Source: Flavobacterium frigoris (GTDB lineage: Bacteria; Bacteroidota; Bacteroidia; Flavobacteriales; Flavobacteriaceae). Taken from it: DNA of 64,000 bases. The DNA lies in contig NZ_FOFZ01000008.1 of assembly GCF_900111075.1 (NCBI RefSeq), positions 62,001 to 126,000 of the forward strand, read 5' to 3'. The notes beneath the pieces were generated by a model that was given only the letters and a program-made list of their open reading frames with translations, searched no databases and had not been told where the DNA came from. Both the position numbers and the translations under genes were made by a program. Below, piece after piece: positions 3,972 to 62,087 of the stretch (the first letter of the stretch is position 1; every line of letters starts with the position of its first letter).

Positions 3972-4658
3972 ATGATGCCTAAAGAGGAACGCATACTGAA
4001 CTTAATCGAAGCCGAGAGAAAAGCAGAAATTCTTTATAAAGAAATTGAAAATCGAAGCCTAATAACGGAAGGAAAAACGGAGCATCAACTAAATACGGAA
4101 GTATTTAACTTAGCATTTGAATTATTTGGTATTAAAAAATTCTGGCACAAACGCATTGTTAGGTCAGGAAGAAACACGCTATTACCCTACAAAGAAAATC
4201 CAATCAATTTAACAATTCAAAAAGACGATATTTTGTTTTTTGATTTCGGTCCCGTTTTTGAAAATTGGGAGGCAGATGTTGGTAAAACGTTTGTACTTGG
4301 TAACAATCAAAAAAAATTAAAACTAAAACGAGATGTAGAACTTGCCTGGAAAGAAGGAAAAGAATACTATTATCAAAATAAAGACAAATTAACAGGTGCT
4401 GATTTTTATCAGTATACTAAAAAGTTAGCTGAAAAATATGGATGGGAATACGGAAACCATCACTGTGGTCATTTAATAGGTAATTTTCCACATGAAGAAA
4501 TTTTAGGCGATGAAGAAATTAATTATATTCATCCCAATAACAATTTGCTAATGAACGAAAAAGACCTAAATGGAGACGAAAGGTTTTGGATTTATGAAAT
4601 TCACTTTATAGACAGAAAATTAGAAATAGGTGGCTTTTTCGAGCAGTTATTATCGTGA
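3972..4658 (+). CDS. M24-family metallopeptidase (Xaa-Pro peptidase-like)
   Basis: A 228-residue cytoplasmic protein with the pita-bread fold of the M24 family and all five expected metal ligands: Asp91 (FFDFGP), Asp102 (EADVGKTF), His167 in HHCGHLIG, Glu209 (IYEIHF) and Glu224 (GGFFEQ). It lacks the N-terminal creatinase domain of true prolidases, so it is a single-domain form; the substrate is unknown. Two ATGs occur in tandem at 3972 and 3975, and either could be used. It stands alone, with gene-free DNA on both sides. Confidence 0.85.
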   Translation: MMPKEERILNLIEAERKAEILYKEIENRSLITEGKTEHQLNTEVFNLAFELFGIKKFWHKRIVRSGRNTLLPYKENPINLTIQKDDILFFDFGPVFENWEADVGKTFVLGNNQKKLKLKRDVELAWKEGKEYYYQNKDKLTGADFYQYTKKLAEKYGWEYGNHHCGHLIGNFPHEEILGDEEINYIHPNNNLLMNEKDLNGDERFWIYEIHFIDRKLEIGGFFEQLLS

Positions 4659-55377: not shown

Positions 55378-56640
55378 ATGAACGAAAAAGTACTTTTTAC
55401 AATGAATCGCATCACAGAAAAATTATGGTTTAGACCCTTGATTTTTTGTATACTTTCCATCTTGGGAGCGTTAATTGCACAAATAGCCGACAGTACCCGT
55501 CTTCATGAATTAGTTCCCAAAATAAATACGGAATCCTTGGAAACATTACTCGATACCATATCAGCAAGTATGTTGGTGATTTCCATTTTCGCGGTGGGCT
55601 CGATGGTTTCAGCATTTTCGGCAGCCAGCAATACGGCCACTCCCCGCTCCTTTAAACTAATTATTGCAGATGATGTGTCACGAAACGCACTTTCTGTTTT
55701 TATAGGTTCGTTCATTTATAGTATTGTGGCAACGGTCGCTTTAAAAAATGGCTACTACGGCGTGGCAGGCAACTTTACTTTATTTGTATTTACACTACTC
55801 TTCTTCGCACTGGTTATTCTTACTTTTTTACGATGGGTTGAGCGTATCTCCCGATTGGGGCGTATGGAACATACCATTAAATTAGTGGAAAATGCCACCG
55901 AAAATGCGATAAAAACAAGATTAGCGTCCCCTACGTTAAATGGAATCAGTATTAATCCAAATCAAGAAAAAGGTACGGCCGTTTATGGTAACATTACTGG
56001 GTATGTCCAACAAATATATATGTCTAACCTACAGATAATTGCAAAAAAATTAGATGCCCTCATTACCATAAACGCAGTTCCTGGAACTTTTTCGGCCATA
56101 GACAAGCCCTTGTTTTATATCTCAGTACTAAAAAACACGACCACTGAGGATGATTATAATGAAATGAGAAAAGCATTTGTAATAGGTAACATGCGTTATT
56201 TTGAAGAAGATCCACGTTTTGGACTCATCACTTTAAGCGAAATTGCGAGTCGTGCTTTATCTCCCGCAGTCAATGACCCCGGAACGGCGATCCAGATAAT
56301 TAGTAGCCATGTGCGTTTATTTTCTTTGTGGGCCGAACCGGTTCATTCGAAAAAGGAAGAAAAATTATCTTATGACCGTATCGCCGTTCCTGAACTTGCA
56401 ATTGCAGATCTATTTGAAGATGCGTTTAGACCCATAGCCAGAGATGGTGCCGGAAATATTGAAGTAATGATCCGACTTCAAAAAGCCTTTAACAGCGTTT
56501 ATGCCATCGATAATTCTGCTATAAAAATAGCCGCAATGCATCATTCCTATCAAGCTTTTGAAAGGGCAGAAATAGAAATGAAATTTAATGGAGATCTTAG
56601 CCTATTAAAAAGCGAGAGTTTATTTACCAAAAAAACATAA
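55378..56640 (+). CDS. DUF2254 family membrane protein
   Basis: A 420-residue inner membrane protein. Four helices lie in the first 160 residues (about 18-37, 62-84, 103-125, 132-152), and the remainder is cytoplasmic. SMLVISIFAVGSMVSAFSAA, TPRSFKLIIADDVSRNALSVF, DPRFGLITLSEIASRALSPA and VNDPGTAIQII match DUF2254. Function is unknown. It is 36 bases upstream of an MscS-like gene, so the two may act together in envelope stress, which is an inference from position. Confidence 0.9.
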   Translation: MNEKVLFTMNRITEKLWFRPLIFCILSILGALIAQIADSTRLHELVPKINTESLETLLDTISASMLVISIFAVGSMVSAFSAASNTATPRSFKLIIADDVSRNALSVFIGSFIYSIVATVALKNGYYGVAGNFTLFVFTLLFFALVILTFLRWVERISRLGRMEHTIKLVENATENAIKTRLASPTLNGISINPNQEKGTAVYGNITGYVQQIYMSNLQIIAKKLDALITINAVPGTFSAIDKPLFYISVLKNTTTEDDYNEMRKAFVIGNMRYFEEDPRFGLITLSEIASRALSPAVNDPGTAIQIISSHVRLFSLWAEPVHSKKEEKLSYDRIAVPELAIADLFEDAFRPIARDGAGNIEVMIRLQKAFNSVYAIDNSAIKIAAMHHSYQAFERAEIEMKFNGDLSLLKSESLFTKKT

Positions 56641-56676
56641 AAATACAGTTTTTAATACCTTTAATGGAACTAATTT

Positions 56677-58620
56677 ATGCAGCACCGACCTACTAAATAT
56701 CATAAAAACATTTTTCTTTCTGTATCGAATCAAACTGTTTCGGGTTTTATAATTAGAAAAATAAAAACCATATTATTAAGTGTTTTTTTACTGTTGGCTT
56801 CGGCGGCAGCCTTCTCACAAAACGATAGCATCAATAAGCAAAATGATTCCATAAACACTTCTCTAATTCAGGCATTCAACAAAAAACTGTCTATTATTGA
56901 AGCGCAACGCCTTACTGATTCCATCAAAAAAGTGGAATTAGAAAAGCAACTCCTTTCCTTAAAAACAACCGATAATCTTAAAAAAGAAGACCTAGAAAAA
57001 CAACTACTAGCGTTACATGAAAAAGACTCGCTACGCCTTACTGAAAAGAAAGCACAAATTAATTCAATGCGGCTTACCGCTAAAGGATATCCAGTTAACG
57101 GATTTTTTAATGACACTTTATTTCACATCTACAGTAAATTAGGTAGTTTCTCAGCCAAGGACCGAGCTGATGCTATTAGTGTTCGAATAACAAATCTTGC
57201 TGATCAATATGGTTTCAATGCAGATTCCATCAAAACAGTTGAAACAGAAACAAGCTTGGATTTAGTGAATGGCGAAAGCATTATTATGAGTATTACTGAA
57301 AATGATGCTCTTTGGAACAATACCACAAAACAGACATTGGCAAAGAAATACAAAGCATTGATTAGTGCCGCTATAATCAAATACAAAAGTGAAACCAGCT
57401 TGGCCACATTAGCCAAAGAAATCGGATTAGCATTACTTGTCTTGATTATTATGTTTGTATTAATTTCTTATTTGAAGAAGTTTTTTAAATGGACAGCATT
57501 TAAAATTAAATTTCAGGAAGACAAACGAATCCAAGGAATAAAAATTAGGAACTTCATTTTATTTGATGCCAAGCAGCAGGTGAATGCATTGCTTAATATC
57601 AACACGGTACTTAAGTGGTTGCTAATCGCATTACTCGTTTATATTGCCTTACCCATTCTCTTTGGGATTTTCCCATGGACTAAAGGATTTGCTTCTACCC
57701 TTTTTGGATATATCCTAAATCCGCTTAAAAAGATAGGTCTTGGTTTTTGGAATTATCTGCCAAATTTGATTACGATTTTGGTGATTATTTTTGTGTTCCG
57801 ATACGTATTAAAAGGAATTAAGTTCCTTAAAAACGAAATTGAAAAAGGGAATTTAGAACTACCTGGTTTTTTTCCAGATTGGGCTAATCCCACCTATCAA
57901 ATTATAAGAGTAATTGTATTTGCTTTTATGGTTGTCGTAATTTTCCCCTATCTTCCTGGAAGTGATTCCCCTGTATTTCAAGGCGTTTCTGTTTTTCTGG
58001 GTTTCCTGTTTACGTTTGGTTCAGCAGGATCACTTTCGAATATTATTGCTGGTTTAATACTGACGTATATGCGCTTGTTTAAAATTGGTGACCGAGTAAA
58101 AATTGGCGAAGTGGTAGGTGACGTAATCGAAAAATCATTATTAGTCACCCGAATAAGAACGATTAAAAACGAAATCATCTCTATTCCTAACTCGACCGTG
58201 ATGAGTAGCCACACGATTAATTACAGTAGCGATGCTCCTGAGAAAGGGCTGATTATTCACTCCACAGTAACTATTGGTTACGATGTGCCCTGGAAAGACA
58301 TGCATCAAGCATTGATTGATGCTGCTTTAAAAACAGCATTAATTTTACAAGAACCAAAACCTTTTGTATTACAAACCAGCCTAGATGATTTCTATGTATC
58401 TTATGAGATCAATGCGTATATCAAAGAGCCTAACAAGCAGGCGGTAATCTATTCTGATCTACATCAAAACATTCAAGATGTGTGTAATGAAAGAGGAATT
58501 GAAATTATGTCGCCACATTATCGCGCAGCAAGAGATGGAAATAGAACCACTATTCCTGAGAATTATTTAGACAAAGAATATCAAGCTCCTCCATTTAATG
58601 TGACATTGAAAAAAGAGTAA
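56677..58620 (+). CDS. MscS-family mechanosensitive ion channel
   Basis: A 647-residue inner membrane channel with an extra periplasmic part. A signal sequence with a long n-region ends near AAAFSQ (residue 47), residues 50-240 include a coiled coil and a periplasmic domain, and five helices lie at about 248-266, 310-334, 361-378, 408-428 and 433-460. The pore helix and beta domain carry GSAGSLSNIIAGLILTYMR, FKIGDRVKIGEVVGDVIEKS and ISIPNSTVMSSHTINYS. The C-terminal alpha/beta domain is complete. It releases solutes on osmotic downshock in related proteins. The IS4-type element begins about 80 bases after its stop. Confidence 0.92.
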   Translation: MQHRPTKYHKNIFLSVSNQTVSGFIIRKIKTILLSVFLLLASAAAFSQNDSINKQNDSINTSLIQAFNKKLSIIEAQRLTDSIKKVELEKQLLSLKTTDNLKKEDLEKQLLALHEKDSLRLTEKKAQINSMRLTAKGYPVNGFFNDTLFHIYSKLGSFSAKDRADAISVRITNLADQYGFNADSIKTVETETSLDLVNGESIIMSITENDALWNNTTKQTLAKKYKALISAAIIKYKSETSLATLAKEIGLALLVLIIMFVLISYLKKFFKWTAFKIKFQEDKRIQGIKIRNFILFDAKQQVNALLNINTVLKWLLIALLVYIALPILFGIFPWTKGFASTLFGYILNPLKKIGLGFWNYLPNLITILVIIFVFRYVLKGIKFLKNEIEKGNLELPGFFPDWANPTYQIIRVIVFAFMVVVIFPYLPGSDSPVFQGVSVFLGFLFTFGSAGSLSNIIAGLILTYMRLFKIGDRVKIGEVVGDVIEKSLLVTRIRTIKNEIISIPNSTVMSSHTINYSSDAPEKGLIIHSTVTIGYDVPWKDMHQALIDAALKTALILQEPKPFVLQTSLDDFYVSYEINAYIKEPNKQAVIYSDLHQNIQDVCNERGIEIMSPHYRAARDGNRTTIPENYLDKEYQAPPFNVTLKKE

Positions 58621-58656
58621 TTCATATCGGCTATTTTTTTTAAACGTTTAATCGCT

Positions 58657-58664
58657 TATATTTG
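58657..58664 (+). promoter_or_regulatory. -7 promoter element ahead of the insertion sequence
   Basis: TATATTTG fits TAnnTTTG. It lies in host DNA 25 bases left of the target duplication. Without the inserted element it would be about 130 bases upstream of the adenosine deaminase-like ATG, so it is a good candidate for that gene's original promoter; now it reads into the transposase. Confidence 0.6.
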
Positions 58665-58688
58665 CCTCCAATTTATTCTGAATAGCAT

Positions 58689-58697
58689 ATTTAGAAT
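58689..58697 (+). repeat. 9-bp target site duplication, left
   Basis: ATTTAGAAT, identical to 60084-60092, directly abuts the left inverted repeat of the insertion sequence. Confidence 0.9.
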
Positions 58698-58715
58698 CAT
58701 TGTTGTCCGATAAAA

Positions 58716-58741
58716 AAAGAAGCCAAAAAGATGGCTTCTTT
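58716..58741. other. Hairpin inside the left end of the insertion sequence
   Basis: AAAGAAGCCA (58716-58725) pairs perfectly with TGGCTTCTTT (58732-58741). It lies between the inverted repeat and the transposase ATG and may limit read-through transcription into the transposase, as in other insertion sequences; it could also end transcripts of the channel gene. Confidence 0.7.
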
Positions 58742-58780
58742 AAATGAATCGTAAATTTGTGTTTCGACATACAAAATACG

Positions 58781-59983
58781 ATGAGTAAAAGTAATTATTT
58801 TTCTAGTAAATCTGTTTTCGGACAGCTGATTTCTTTAATTGACGATTCGATTATAAAAAAAGAAGTCAAAAAATGTGAATCAGACCGTTATACAAAGCGA
58901 TTTACCACAAAAGACCATTTGATAAGTATGCTTTTTTGTTCTTTCTCAAAGTGTACATCACTTAGAGAAATATCTGGAGCAATGCTTGGTTTATCAGGTA
59001 AAACAAGTAGTTTTCAGTTAAATCACATCCCTAAAAGGAGTACTTTATCTGATGCTAATAAGAAAAGAGATGTTTTGGTTTTTGAAAATATTTATCATCA
59101 ATTGCTAAAGCAATATGGTGGTTTTTTATCGGACAGCCGCATTAAAGATGTTATAAATAAGCAGGTCAAAATTTTTGATAGTTCAACAATTAGCCTATTC
59201 AAAGACATTATGGGTTGCGTAGGAAGAAATCCAAAAAGTGGAAAAAGAAAAGGAGGAATTAAATTGCATACGGTTGTCAATGCTGATGAAATGGTGCCGA
59301 GTTTGGTTTGGTTCAGCGAAGCCAAAACACACGACCACAATTTTTTAGAAAAATTAAAATGCGATGAAAACACCATTTATGTTTTTGACAAAGGATACAA
59401 TGATTACAAGGCTTTTGAGCATTTTACAGCTCAAAAAACAGGGTTTGTAACTCGAATAAAAGACAACGCATCGTATATAAGTATCGAAAAACTAGATATT
59501 GGAGAACGAATTCATAACGGAGTTTTAGAAGATGAAATTATTGAAATTGATGTGAAAAAAGGTAAAGAAATGTCGAAATTAAGGTTGAGAAAAGTGACGT
59601 TTTATGACCTAGTAAACAAACGAGAATTTGAGTTTTTAACTAATTTATTTGACTTGCGCGCCGATTTAATTGCGGCTTTGTATAAAACAAGATGGCAAAT
59701 AGAGTTATTATTCAAACAATTAAAGCAAAATTTTCCATTAAAATATTTCTTGGGAGATAATGAAAATGCCATTAAAATACAGATTTATTGTGTTTTGATA
59801 GTTAACTTGCTATTAGCGGTGGTCAAAAAGAAACTAAAGCGCAGTTGGGCATTTTCAAATTTGGTTAGCTTTTGTAAAATTCATCTTTTTAATTACATCA
59901 ATTTAATGAAATTTCTGGAAAATCCAGAAAAGGATTGGATAATTGACAAGGCTGAAACAGAACAACTATCATTAATTTTGTGA
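58781..59983 (+). CDS. IS4-family transposase
   Basis: A 400-residue DDE transposase from the ATG at 58781. The N-terminal part (SVFGQLISLIDDSIIKKEV, then FTTKDHLISMLFCSFSKCTS) is the DUF4372 domain common in this group. The catalytic residues are Asp in IFDSSTISLF, Asp in YVFDKGYNDY and Glu in YKTRWQIELLFKQLK, the last being a perfect Y-x2-R-x3-E-x6-K signature. The frame also opens at a TTG at 58757, which is less likely. No frameshift or internal stop is seen, so the enzyme should be functional. Confidence 0.95.
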   Translation: MSKSNYFSSKSVFGQLISLIDDSIIKKEVKKCESDRYTKRFTTKDHLISMLFCSFSKCTSLREISGAMLGLSGKTSSFQLNHIPKRSTLSDANKKRDVLVFENIYHQLLKQYGGFLSDSRIKDVINKQVKIFDSSTISLFKDIMGCVGRNPKSGKRKGGIKLHTVVNADEMVPSLVWFSEAKTHDHNFLEKLKCDENTIYVFDKGYNDYKAFEHFTAQKTGFVTRIKDNASYISIEKLDIGERIHNGVLEDEIIEIDVKKGKEMSKLRLRKVTFYDLVNKREFEFLTNLFDLRADLIAALYKTRWQIELLFKQLKQNFPLKYFLGDNENAIKIQIYCVLIVNLLLAVVKKKLKRSWAFSNLVSFCKIHLFNYINLMKFLENPEKDWIIDKAETEQLSLIL

Positions 59984-60083
59984 CCTGTTTTTGGAAAAGC
60001 ATAGAAGATGAAAATTAAAACAATGAAAATCAAATAGATAAAAAATAAAATATTACGATTTTATTTTTTATCGGACATTAATG

Positions 60084-60092
60084 ATTTAGAAT
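60084..60092 (+). repeat. 9-bp target site duplication, right
   Basis: ATTTAGAAT directly follows the right inverted repeat; same sequence as 58689-58697. Confidence 0.9.
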
Positions 60093-60155
60093 AGATATAA
60101 TGATATGCAAACTATAATTCAGGTACTCAAAATGAATTCCTTTGCTTCAATTTTA

Positions 60156-60169
60156 CCGATAATTATCGG
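60156..60169. repeat. Palindrome upstream of the adenosine deaminase-like gene
   Basis: CCGATAATTATCGG is a perfect 14-base palindrome 20 bases before the ATG at 60189. It may be an operator, or another copy of the palindrome family seen at 53033. Confidence 0.6.
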
Positions 60170-60188
60170 AACCACAAAAACAGATATT

Positions 60189-61607
60189 ATGAAATTAATT
60201 TATACGCTTCTTTTTTCGGCAATGCTGAATCTAAGCTACTCACAATCCCCTAGTCTTTACTTAGAGAAAATTAGAAATAATGAAGCTGAACTTACAGCTT
60301 TCTTTTCTCAAATGCCAAAAGGAGGCGATCTACACCACCATTTTAGTGGTTCCATTTATGCCGAACCAATGTTAGAAGACGCAATAACCGAAGACTTTTA
60401 CTTGAATACTACCACTATGGAAGTGCTTAAGGAAAAACCTGCAACTGGTACTTGGGAAAAATTCTCTGCTATAGCTAATCGCGGTGAACTAGGCGTTTAC
60501 AAACAGAAAATAATGGAAAAATGGTCTGTAAAAGACTATAATCATGTTAGTTACCCGTCAGACAAATTGTTTTTTGAGTCTTTTGGAAAGTTCAGTCCAG
60601 CAATTGTGGGGCATTTTGGCGAAGGTTTATTGGAACTAAAAAATAGAGCAATTAAGGAAAACGTGAGTTATATCGAAACCGAATTCTCGACTATCCCTTC
60701 TAAAATCAATACCGCTGATCTATTAGGTTTTAATACCCAATTAAGACAATTGGCAAACAACAGAAACGAAAAAGGAGTAAAATCACTTCTTGATACGCTT
60801 TACAGCACAATGCTAAAAAGAGATGCAGTGGCAGATGCGAAGGATTTCAACACGAACTTTGTAACTAAACTACACACCGATTTGAAAATTGACGATGAAC
60901 GTTTCACGATGCGTTATCAAAATTTTGTATTGCGTTTTATGGAACCTGTGGATTTATTTAAAAATTTAGTCGTCGCTTTTATCTCAGCCGATAGCAGTCC
61001 GCTAATGGCTGGTGTTAATATTGTTTCGCCAGAAGACAGTGAAACCTCGATGAAAGATTATTGGTTGCACATGGTAATGTTCAACTATTGCCACACTAAA
61101 TTTCCTGATGTAAAATACTCGATGCATGCGGGCGAGCTCACCTTAGGACTGGTTCAACCTGAAGATCTGACATCACATATTAACGATGCTGTTTATACGG
61201 CTGGAGCCAATCGTATTGGACATGGAGTTGACATGGCGTACGAAGCAAAATCATACGAGTTGTTACGCTACATGGCAATAAACAAGATTGCTATTGAAAT
61301 CAATCTAGTAAGCAATGAGTTCATTTTGAAAGTCAAAGAAAACCGCCATCCAATTTCTCTATACAAAGCGTTTGGAGTTCCCATCGTTATCAGTACAGAT
61401 GATGCCGGGATATTGCGATCTAATATGACTGAACAATATGTTTTATTGGCTAAGAGATACAAAGACATATCCTATGCTGATATCAAGCAATATGTGTACA
61501 ACAGCATAAACTACAGCTTTATACAGGATGATAAGGTAAAAAAACAATTATTAAAAGATCTTGACTTGAGATTTAAAACTTTTGAAGCCAATTTTCCTTT
61601 AAAATAA
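60189..61607 (+). CDS. Secreted adenosine deaminase-like protein (ADGF/CECR1 type)
   Basis: A 472-residue exported metal-dependent deaminase. From the ATG at 60189 the signal peptide ends near LSYSQS. MPKGGDLHHHFSGS carries the first two metal ligands (His49, His51), YSMHAGEL, ANRIGHGVDMAYE and VISTDDAGI give the rest of the ADA site. Length and secretion resemble the ADGF group rather than cytoplasmic adenosine deaminase. It probably deaminates external adenosine. The frame runs upstream to 60105, which would put 28 residues before the signal peptide. The insertion sequence ends 105 bases before the ATG. Confidence 0.9.
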   Translation: MKLIYTLLFSAMLNLSYSQSPSLYLEKIRNNEAELTAFFSQMPKGGDLHHHFSGSIYAEPMLEDAITEDFYLNTTTMEVLKEKPATGTWEKFSAIANRGELGVYKQKIMEKWSVKDYNHVSYPSDKLFFESFGKFSPAIVGHFGEGLLELKNRAIKENVSYIETEFSTIPSKINTADLLGFNTQLRQLANNRNEKGVKSLLDTLYSTMLKRDAVADAKDFNTNFVTKLHTDLKIDDERFTMRYQNFVLRFMEPVDLFKNLVVAFISADSSPLMAGVNIVSPEDSETSMKDYWLHMVMFNYCHTKFPDVKYSMHAGELTLGLVQPEDLTSHINDAVYTAGANRIGHGVDMAYEAKSYELLRYMAINKIAIEINLVSNEFILKVKENRHPISLYKAFGVPIVISTDDAGILRSNMTEQYVLLAKRYKDISYADIKQYVYNSINYSFIQDDKVKKQLLKDLDLRFKTFEANFPLK

Positions 61608-61613
61608 ATTCTA

Positions 61614-62087
61614 ATGAACATCAAATTGATCGCCATTGGCAAAACAGATAATAAAGCATTACAATCCTTAATTGACGATTATACAAAGCGATTGTCTTTT
61701 TATATCAAGTTTGACTTAGAGGTTATCCCAGATATTAAGAATGTAAAAAACTTATCTGAAAGCCAACAGAAAGAGAAAGAAGGTGAATTAATCTTGGCAA
61801 AAATATCCCCAACTGATCAATTGATCCTATTGGATGAAAATGGAAAGAATTTTTCAAGTGTAGGATTCTCTGAAGAACTGCAAAAGAAAATGAATTCTGG
61901 CATAAAAACTTTAGTATTTGTAATTGGTGGACCTTATGGCTTTTCTGATACAGTCTACGCCAAAGCACAAGGAAAGATTTCGCTTTCGTTAATGACATTC
62001 TCTCATCAAATGGTGCGTTTGTTTTTTATCGAACAACTATATCGTGGATTTACTATTTTAAAGAATGAACCGTATCATCACCAATAA
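61614..62087 (+). CDS. rlmH: 23S rRNA (pseudouridine1915-N3)-methyltransferase RlmH
   Basis: A 157-residue SPOUT methyltransferase acting on pseudouridine 1915 of 23S rRNA. LIAIGKTDNKALQSLIDDYTKRLS, LILLDENGKNFSSVGFSEEL, VFVIGGPYGFSD and LSLMTFSHQMVRLFFIEQLYRGFTI match the family over full length, including the C-terminal YHH(Q). It starts only 6 bases after the deaminase-like gene's stop and so depends on transcription from upstream. Confidence 0.96.
   Translation: MNIKLIAIGKTDNKALQSLIDDYTKRLSFYIKFDLEVIPDIKNVKNLSESQQKEKEGELILAKISPTDQLILLDENGKNFSSVGFSEELQKKMNSGIKTLVFVIGGPYGFSDTVYAKAQGKISLSLMTFSHQMVRLFFIEQLYRGFTILKNEPYHHQ

Follow-up and report, generated by a model that had tools for sequence, protein, structure and literature searches.

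Introduction

Insertion sequences of the IS4 family carry one gene, which encodes a DDE transposase with a YREK motif, between short inverted repeats, and a 9-bp target duplication flanks them. Insertion sequences are also known to alter the expression of genes downstream of their insertion sites. IS10 and IS50, which are distant IS4 relatives, offer a comparison for the protection of an element from outside transcription, and Amoebophilus, a member of the Bacteroidetes, offers one for transcription that leaves an element. In Amoebophilus, contiguous transcripts from the insertion sequence into the adjacent gene were described at 9 of 10 loci, and in IS200, according to the same source, one stem-loop ends impinging transcripts while a second covers the ribosome binding site (PMC3196728). 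Here we describe an IS4-family element in a 64,000-nucleotide stretch of Flavobacterium frigoris DNA (contig NZ_FOFZ01000008.1, positions 62,001 to 126,000 of the forward strand). We call this whole stretch the window, and its own numbering is used below. The element separates the predicted promoter of an adenosine deaminase-like gene from that gene and from the rlmH gene that follows it.

The element shares with the IS4 family the DDE transposase with YREK, the single gene, the short inverted repeats and the 9-bp duplication. It also resembles the described insertions that alter downstream expression in that it stands between a promoter and a gene. We consider it quite probable that an insertion into the leader parted the promoter from the deaminase-rlmH unit and that the expression of this unit is thereby reduced.

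Results

Structure of the element

The element occupies 58698-60083 (1386 bp, + strand) and is flanked by two copies of the 9-bp target duplication ATTTAGAAT, the left one at 58689-58697 and the right one at 60084-60092. Its terminal repeats, CATTGTTGTCCGATAAAAAA at 58698-58717 (+ strand) and CATTAATGTCCGATAAAAAA at 60064-60083 (- strand), agree at 18 of 20 positions, and the frame of its transposase gene (58781-59983, + strand, 400 aa) is uninterrupted. The borders, the repeats, the duplication and the intact transposase that had been reported in an earlier note on this DNA were all reproduced. The assignment to the IS4 type was also borne out, since the transposase scored 215.2 bits with the NCBIfam model NF033592 (IS4 family, transpos_IS4_1), far over the cut-off of 115, and 78.5 bits with PF01609 (cut-off 23). 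The Y-(2)-R-(3)-E-(6)-K signature was found as YKTRWQIELLFKQLK at residue 301 of the transposase, and D133 (in DSST), D203 (in DKGY) and E308 (in YREK) are the candidate catalytic residues. Among 11 related loci that span both ends of such an element, an exact 9-bp duplication was present in 7 and was missing from L109, L110, L111 and L114.

The promoter upstream of the element

The upstream neighbour of the insertion is a mechanosensitive-channel gene, which ends at 58620. Between this gene and the element lies TATATTTG (58657-58664, + strand), which has the form TAHHTTTG of the -7 box recognized by the Bacteroidetes sigma-A. A TTTG at -33 is not present upstream of TATATTTG, and a run of T, TTTTTTTT, stands in its place. 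In F. johnsoniae many transcription starts lie 4-5 nt past the -7 box and the -33 motif is described as much less evident (PMC6847099). By this rule the start is predicted at 58669-58670.

Of 80 named Flavobacterium relatives, which are a non-independent sample, 67 have TAnnTTTG in the 200 bp ahead of the deaminase gene, where 10.2 would be expected from mononucleotide shuffles. In 42 of the 80, one such motif begins exactly 29 bases before the deaminase ATG. The very letters of TATATTTG are kept in three relatives, at -137 in L028 and L004 and at -136 in L032. The earlier note had regarded TATATTTG as the natural promoter of the deaminase gene, and the conservation and position given above agree with this; TATATTTG is very probably the -7 box of the deaminase promoter.

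The element begins about 29 bases past the predicted start, within a predicted leader of 125 nt. Thus the promoter and the gene are parted, and the promoter itself is unbroken. The insertion had been placed between a promoter element and the gene. Its position between the -7 box and the gene holds, but it does not lie between promoter elements, since the site falls in the predicted 5' leader.

In a close relative, ACAM 123 (L029), TACCTTCG stands upstream of position 4001 where other relatives have TATATTTG, so that the promoter box may have decayed there without an insertion. A scan with the sigma-70 motif, which is not the motif of this phylum, gave 17 matches against 16.9 in shuffled sequences and was rejected as chance. 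A CGGACA-18-TATAAT pair across the right junction belongs to this background and was likewise counted as chance.

Deaminase, rlmH and the right side of the element

On the right side, 96 bases of the deaminase leader remain (60093-60188, + strand) before the ATG at 60189. The statement that they hold no TAnnTTTG was found to be correct, and a scan of both strands detected the motif neither in 60084-60250 nor in 60189-61640. The deaminase gene (60189-61607, + strand) encodes an adenosine deaminase-like protein of 472 aa (PF00962, E = 2.5e-20), which falls below the NCBIfam cut-offs (78.7 bits with TIGR01430, cut-off 216.55) and whose N-terminus, by eye, resembles a signal peptide. The rlmH gene (61614-62087, + strand; 281.4 bits with NF000990, cut-off 207) follows after 6 bases (61608-61613), the distance given before. 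The deaminase and rlmH have one match each in their own genome.

Where rlmH adjoins the deaminase gene, 1 of 8 relatives has TAnnTTTG in the 200 bp ahead of rlmH. Where the two genes lie apart, it occurs there in just 8 of 43, and in 29 of the 80 relatives no rlmH was present within the fetched stretch. It is plausible that rlmH would depend solely on the deaminase promoter.

Three relatives carry a small gene, beginning by eye with MILETA or MILEAV, between deaminase and rlmH (L004, 2917-3329; L031, 5417-5778; L084, 5405-6009). The copy in L004 is apparently broken by a stop. This gene is absent from the window, where the gap is the 6 bases mentioned above.

The empty site and the age of the insertion

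The earlier note had proposed a comparison with a strain that lacks the element, and F. gillisiae DSM 22376 (L028) provides it. In the corresponding intergenic region of this strain ATTTAGAAT stands once and the element is absent, and the spacer is likewise free of the element in the aligned relatives L004, L029 and L032. In 200-base segments, with the element excluded, the identity of the flanks to F. gillisiae was 96-99% over 56801-60395, and the segments adjoining the element were 98-99% identical to this empty-site relative. These observations support a recent insertion. Further out, the identity was 94-95% in 56401-56800, 61-87% upstream of 56401 and 79-96% downstream. The dS values against F. 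gillisiae were 0.08 for the channel gene, 0.49 for the deaminase gene and 0.38 for rlmH. Taken together, the high local identity and the contrast in dS make it probable that the tract around the insertion site has a recent common ancestry with F. gillisiae and that the element arrived once this tract had split. Downstream, the tract has no sharp border. In comparison with L028, 56401-60395 may also be seen as a possible recombination tract that holds the insertion site.

The genome of F. frigoris (63 contigs) has a single copy of the element by DNA and a single transposase match by protein; an extra 36-base DNA match is the element's own right-end hairpin on the opposite strand. Another Flavobacterium (G207), which has 9+9 repeat ends in all, has contig ends that match 126 bp of the element's left end with 100% identity. 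This identity over the 126 bp of the left end may point to a recent transfer within the genus. In other Flavobacterium genomes, matches to the element longer than 1,000 bases are 66-79% identical. In the plasmid collection no DNA match to the element was found, and 391 records have protein relatives of the transposase, each below 60% identity. We are dealing with a recent, ordinary insertion of an IS4-family element just downstream of a well-supported promoter.

Expected effect on expression and alternative explanations

We consider that the following events would explain the locus. In a Flavobacterium close to F. gillisiae, a simple IS4-family element inserted itself into the 5' leader of the unit formed by the deaminase gene and rlmH, taking as its target an AT-rich 9-mer of the kind that its group prefers. 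The intact promoter would now transcribe about 29 bases of the leader and then the element. The deaminase gene and rlmH would thus have no direct promoter, and their expression would probably fall to what is supplied by read-through of the element, whether this begins at the transposase promoter or at the old one, both of which have the same direction. Less certainly, the start region of the element may fold, so that incoming transcripts translate the transposase poorly. Lower expression of the deaminase gene and rlmH is the likely result.

Several observations weigh against this explanation. Thirteen of the 80 relatives, the close L029 among them, lack TAnnTTTG in the 200 bp ahead of the deaminase gene. 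Other sigma motifs, which escape a scan for TAnnTTTG, are described for 7% of the high-confidence starts of F. psychrophilum (PMC9723704). The 8 of 43 relatives given above show that this motif is a poor marker of rlmH promoters, and hence its absence upstream of rlmH here says little. The transposase and deaminase genes have the same orientation, the element contains a perfect TAHHTTTG that points at the deaminase gene, and the co-transcription from insertion sequence to gene described in Amoebophilus (PMC3196728) is a precedent by which expression may persist.

The last of these points bears on the main alternative to reduced expression, namely that the transposase mRNA extends through the deaminase gene and rlmH, in which case the insertion would change the control of these genes without silencing them. 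Besides the common orientation, this is favoured by the promoter-like TAAATTTG ahead of the transposase gene and by the right-end hairpin (60037-60072, + strand, 15-bp arms), which is rich in A-U pairs and did not come up in the terminator scan. However, this hairpin folds at -12 kcal/mol (fold of 60030-60080, z -4.60) and might act as a weak terminator, and transposase promoters are usually weak. We therefore see sustained read-through as a possibility with roughly one chance in three.

It is improbable, in our view, that an outward promoter of the element substitutes for the lost one. Within the element, the perfect matches to TAHHTTTG on the + strand are TAAATTTG (58752) and TAATTTTG (59973-59980), and the latter is a weak candidate for such a promoter. 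In 7 of 11 related full-length elements TAGGTTTG lies about 7 bases from that place. However, none of the 11 has TAHHTTTG there, and promoters of F. johnsoniae are described as having almost no G at those two positions of TAGGTTTG (PMC6847099). Furthermore, TAATTTTG belongs to the coding end of the transposase gene, and since TAnnTTTG occurs 52 times per 64 kb on the + strand, about 0.24 would be expected by chance in 300 bp.

Target choice

Repeat ends matching CATTnnTGTCCGATAAAA were found in 46 of 398 Flavobacterium genomes. From the matches listed, we collected 117 insertion sites, a mix of full elements, short non-autonomous elements and remnants. Eighteen of these are two-sided and were paired by a matching 9-mer, in some cases across two contigs with only the 9-mer to link them, so that the pairing offers no independent test of the duplication length. 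Over the 117 listed sites the target 9-mers are AT-rich (91% AT) and follow a symmetric consensus, ATTWNWAAT, and the AT content around the sites drops with distance. The 9-mer of the window, ATTTAGAAT, ranks 16th of 117 for target fit; it fits the AT-rich preference of the group.

These sites also bear on the idea that the group tends to land on or beside a -7 box. As controls we used 9-mers of similar target score, drawn from genic and intergenic DNA alike and judged in the same way as the sites. A TAnnTTTG on the known flank side overlapped 7 of 117 sites against 58 of 2561 controls (2.3%), and 3 of the 18 two-sided sites against 25 of 395 controls (6.3%); two of these three, both in G170, cut within TATATTTGC. 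Within 60 bp, 13 boxes faced the element and 14 faced away, where 5.4 and 6.2 were expected from the outer flank. However, the numbers are small, sites in one genome are not independent, and what stands out most is a symmetric 9-mer that is rich in AT, as is the DNA around it. Intergenic DNA offers AT-rich targets and promoters together, so that landing mostly in such DNA would by itself give a modest excess of boxes. Nor is the -7 box overlapped by the insertion site in the window. We think that a genuine preference for promoters is unlikely.

Folds at the left end of the element

A hairpin, GAAGCC...GGCTTC, lies just inside the left repeat (58716-58741, + strand; fold of 58698-58760, z -3.80) and is conserved in related elements. 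Single-sequence folds and pair counts point to a second fold (58748-58782, + strand), whose 3' arm lies over the transposase start. The predicted -7 box of the transposase promoter, TAAATTTG (58752-58759, + strand), places the start, by the position rule, at about 58764. The 5' arm of the second helix is upstream of this predicted start, which means that the second fold would form only in transcripts that come from outside.

We aligned 13 left ends of related elements, of which 12 are distinct. Identical or nearly identical copies (L119, L120, L123, L125, L130, L131, L132 and L268), truncated ends (L302, L312 and L124) and remnants in which the hairpin or the following sequence is broken (L288, L291, L297, L307 and L318) were excluded. 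In helix 1, 97.9% of the cells were paired. In helix 2, 87.5% were paired over the 12 distinct sequences; 18 of 144 cells failed, mainly at four inner pairs, and two-sided changes were seen at 2 pairs. In the comparison with shuffled 3' letters, the value of 91.7% of cells paired was reached in 1 of 500 shuffles, as was the covariation score of 0.078; the counts of 3 pairs with two-sided changes and of 6 further pair types were reached in 10 and 149 of 500, respectively. Slid controls gave 35-47% of cells paired. A search of Rfam over 58400-60500 gave no match up to E = 1.

The pairing of 58771-58782 was 0.88 in read-through RNA, compared with 0.28 in native RNA and 0.40 when the upstream part was shuffled (0 of 200 shuffles as high), and that of 58766-58783 was 0.71 in the read-through RNA against 0.27 in the native RNA (7 of 200 as high). 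Four stretches over the transposase start were tried with mixed results, so that the best of these values was picked after the fact.

From these folds we tentatively propose that this IS4 group may possess a guard, that is, a conserved hairpin and a second fold that would close off the transposase start in incoming transcripts and leave it open in native ones. We would put this somewhat below an even chance, and the following results weigh against it. The pairing of the AUG (0.71 in read-through against 0.53 in native RNA; 49 of 200 shuffles as high) did not differ significantly, and that of 58776-58786 (0.72 against 0.57; shuffles 0.61, sd 0.10) gave no clear result. The RNAalifold consensus did not contain the second fold, which came from single-sequence folds of the same sequences. 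In the terminator scan, the left-end hairpin was terminator-like on the - strand only, with too few T after it on the + strand.

The predicted order of the two folds is the same as that in IS200. However, the IS200 transposase is unrelated to that of the element, and the first hairpin of the element is terminator-like on the - strand only and not for incoming + transcripts. The mRNAs of Bacteroidetes are described as having no Shine-Dalgarno sequences (PMC6847099), so that, unlike in IS200, the predicted fold would cover the start region itself.

Short relatives of the element

Inverted repeats of this insertion sequence together with 9-bp duplications were also observed in L286 (G256, 223 bp), in L309 (G192, 242 bp) and at the sites L169 and L251. 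L286 and L309 are too short for a transposase gene and are apparently non-autonomous relatives of the element, like miniature inverted-repeat transposable elements. The interiors of the short elements hold palindromes such as GTCCCTACGGGAC or GCTCC...GGAGC, and several further repeat ends, judged by eye, have similar interiors. Among the papers listed in literature searches, we recognized none that deals with the element or with these short relatives.

Discussion

At this locus a predicted promoter of a Flavobacterium has been parted from its gene cleanly, recently and by a natural event, and a close relative has the empty site. The insertion is otherwise an ordinary kind of event. The ribosome-methylating neighbour of the deaminase, RlmH, is probably weakened together with it. 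Because the separation is clean and an empty-site relative exists, the locus is usable as a natural experiment on whether read-through of an insertion sequence can sustain the housekeeping gene rlmH.

The conserved hairpin and the second fold, which is predicted to cover the start of the transposase gene in read-through transcripts, resemble the stem-loops of IS200 and would be mildly new. They suggest a flavobacterial version of a known strategy by which insertion sequences restrain themselves. If the proposed guard is true, the element could sit right behind an active host promoter without over-expression of its transposase. Such a guard would work in a phylum whose mRNAs have no Shine-Dalgarno sequences, and it would suit a group of elements with a tendency to insert next to promoters.

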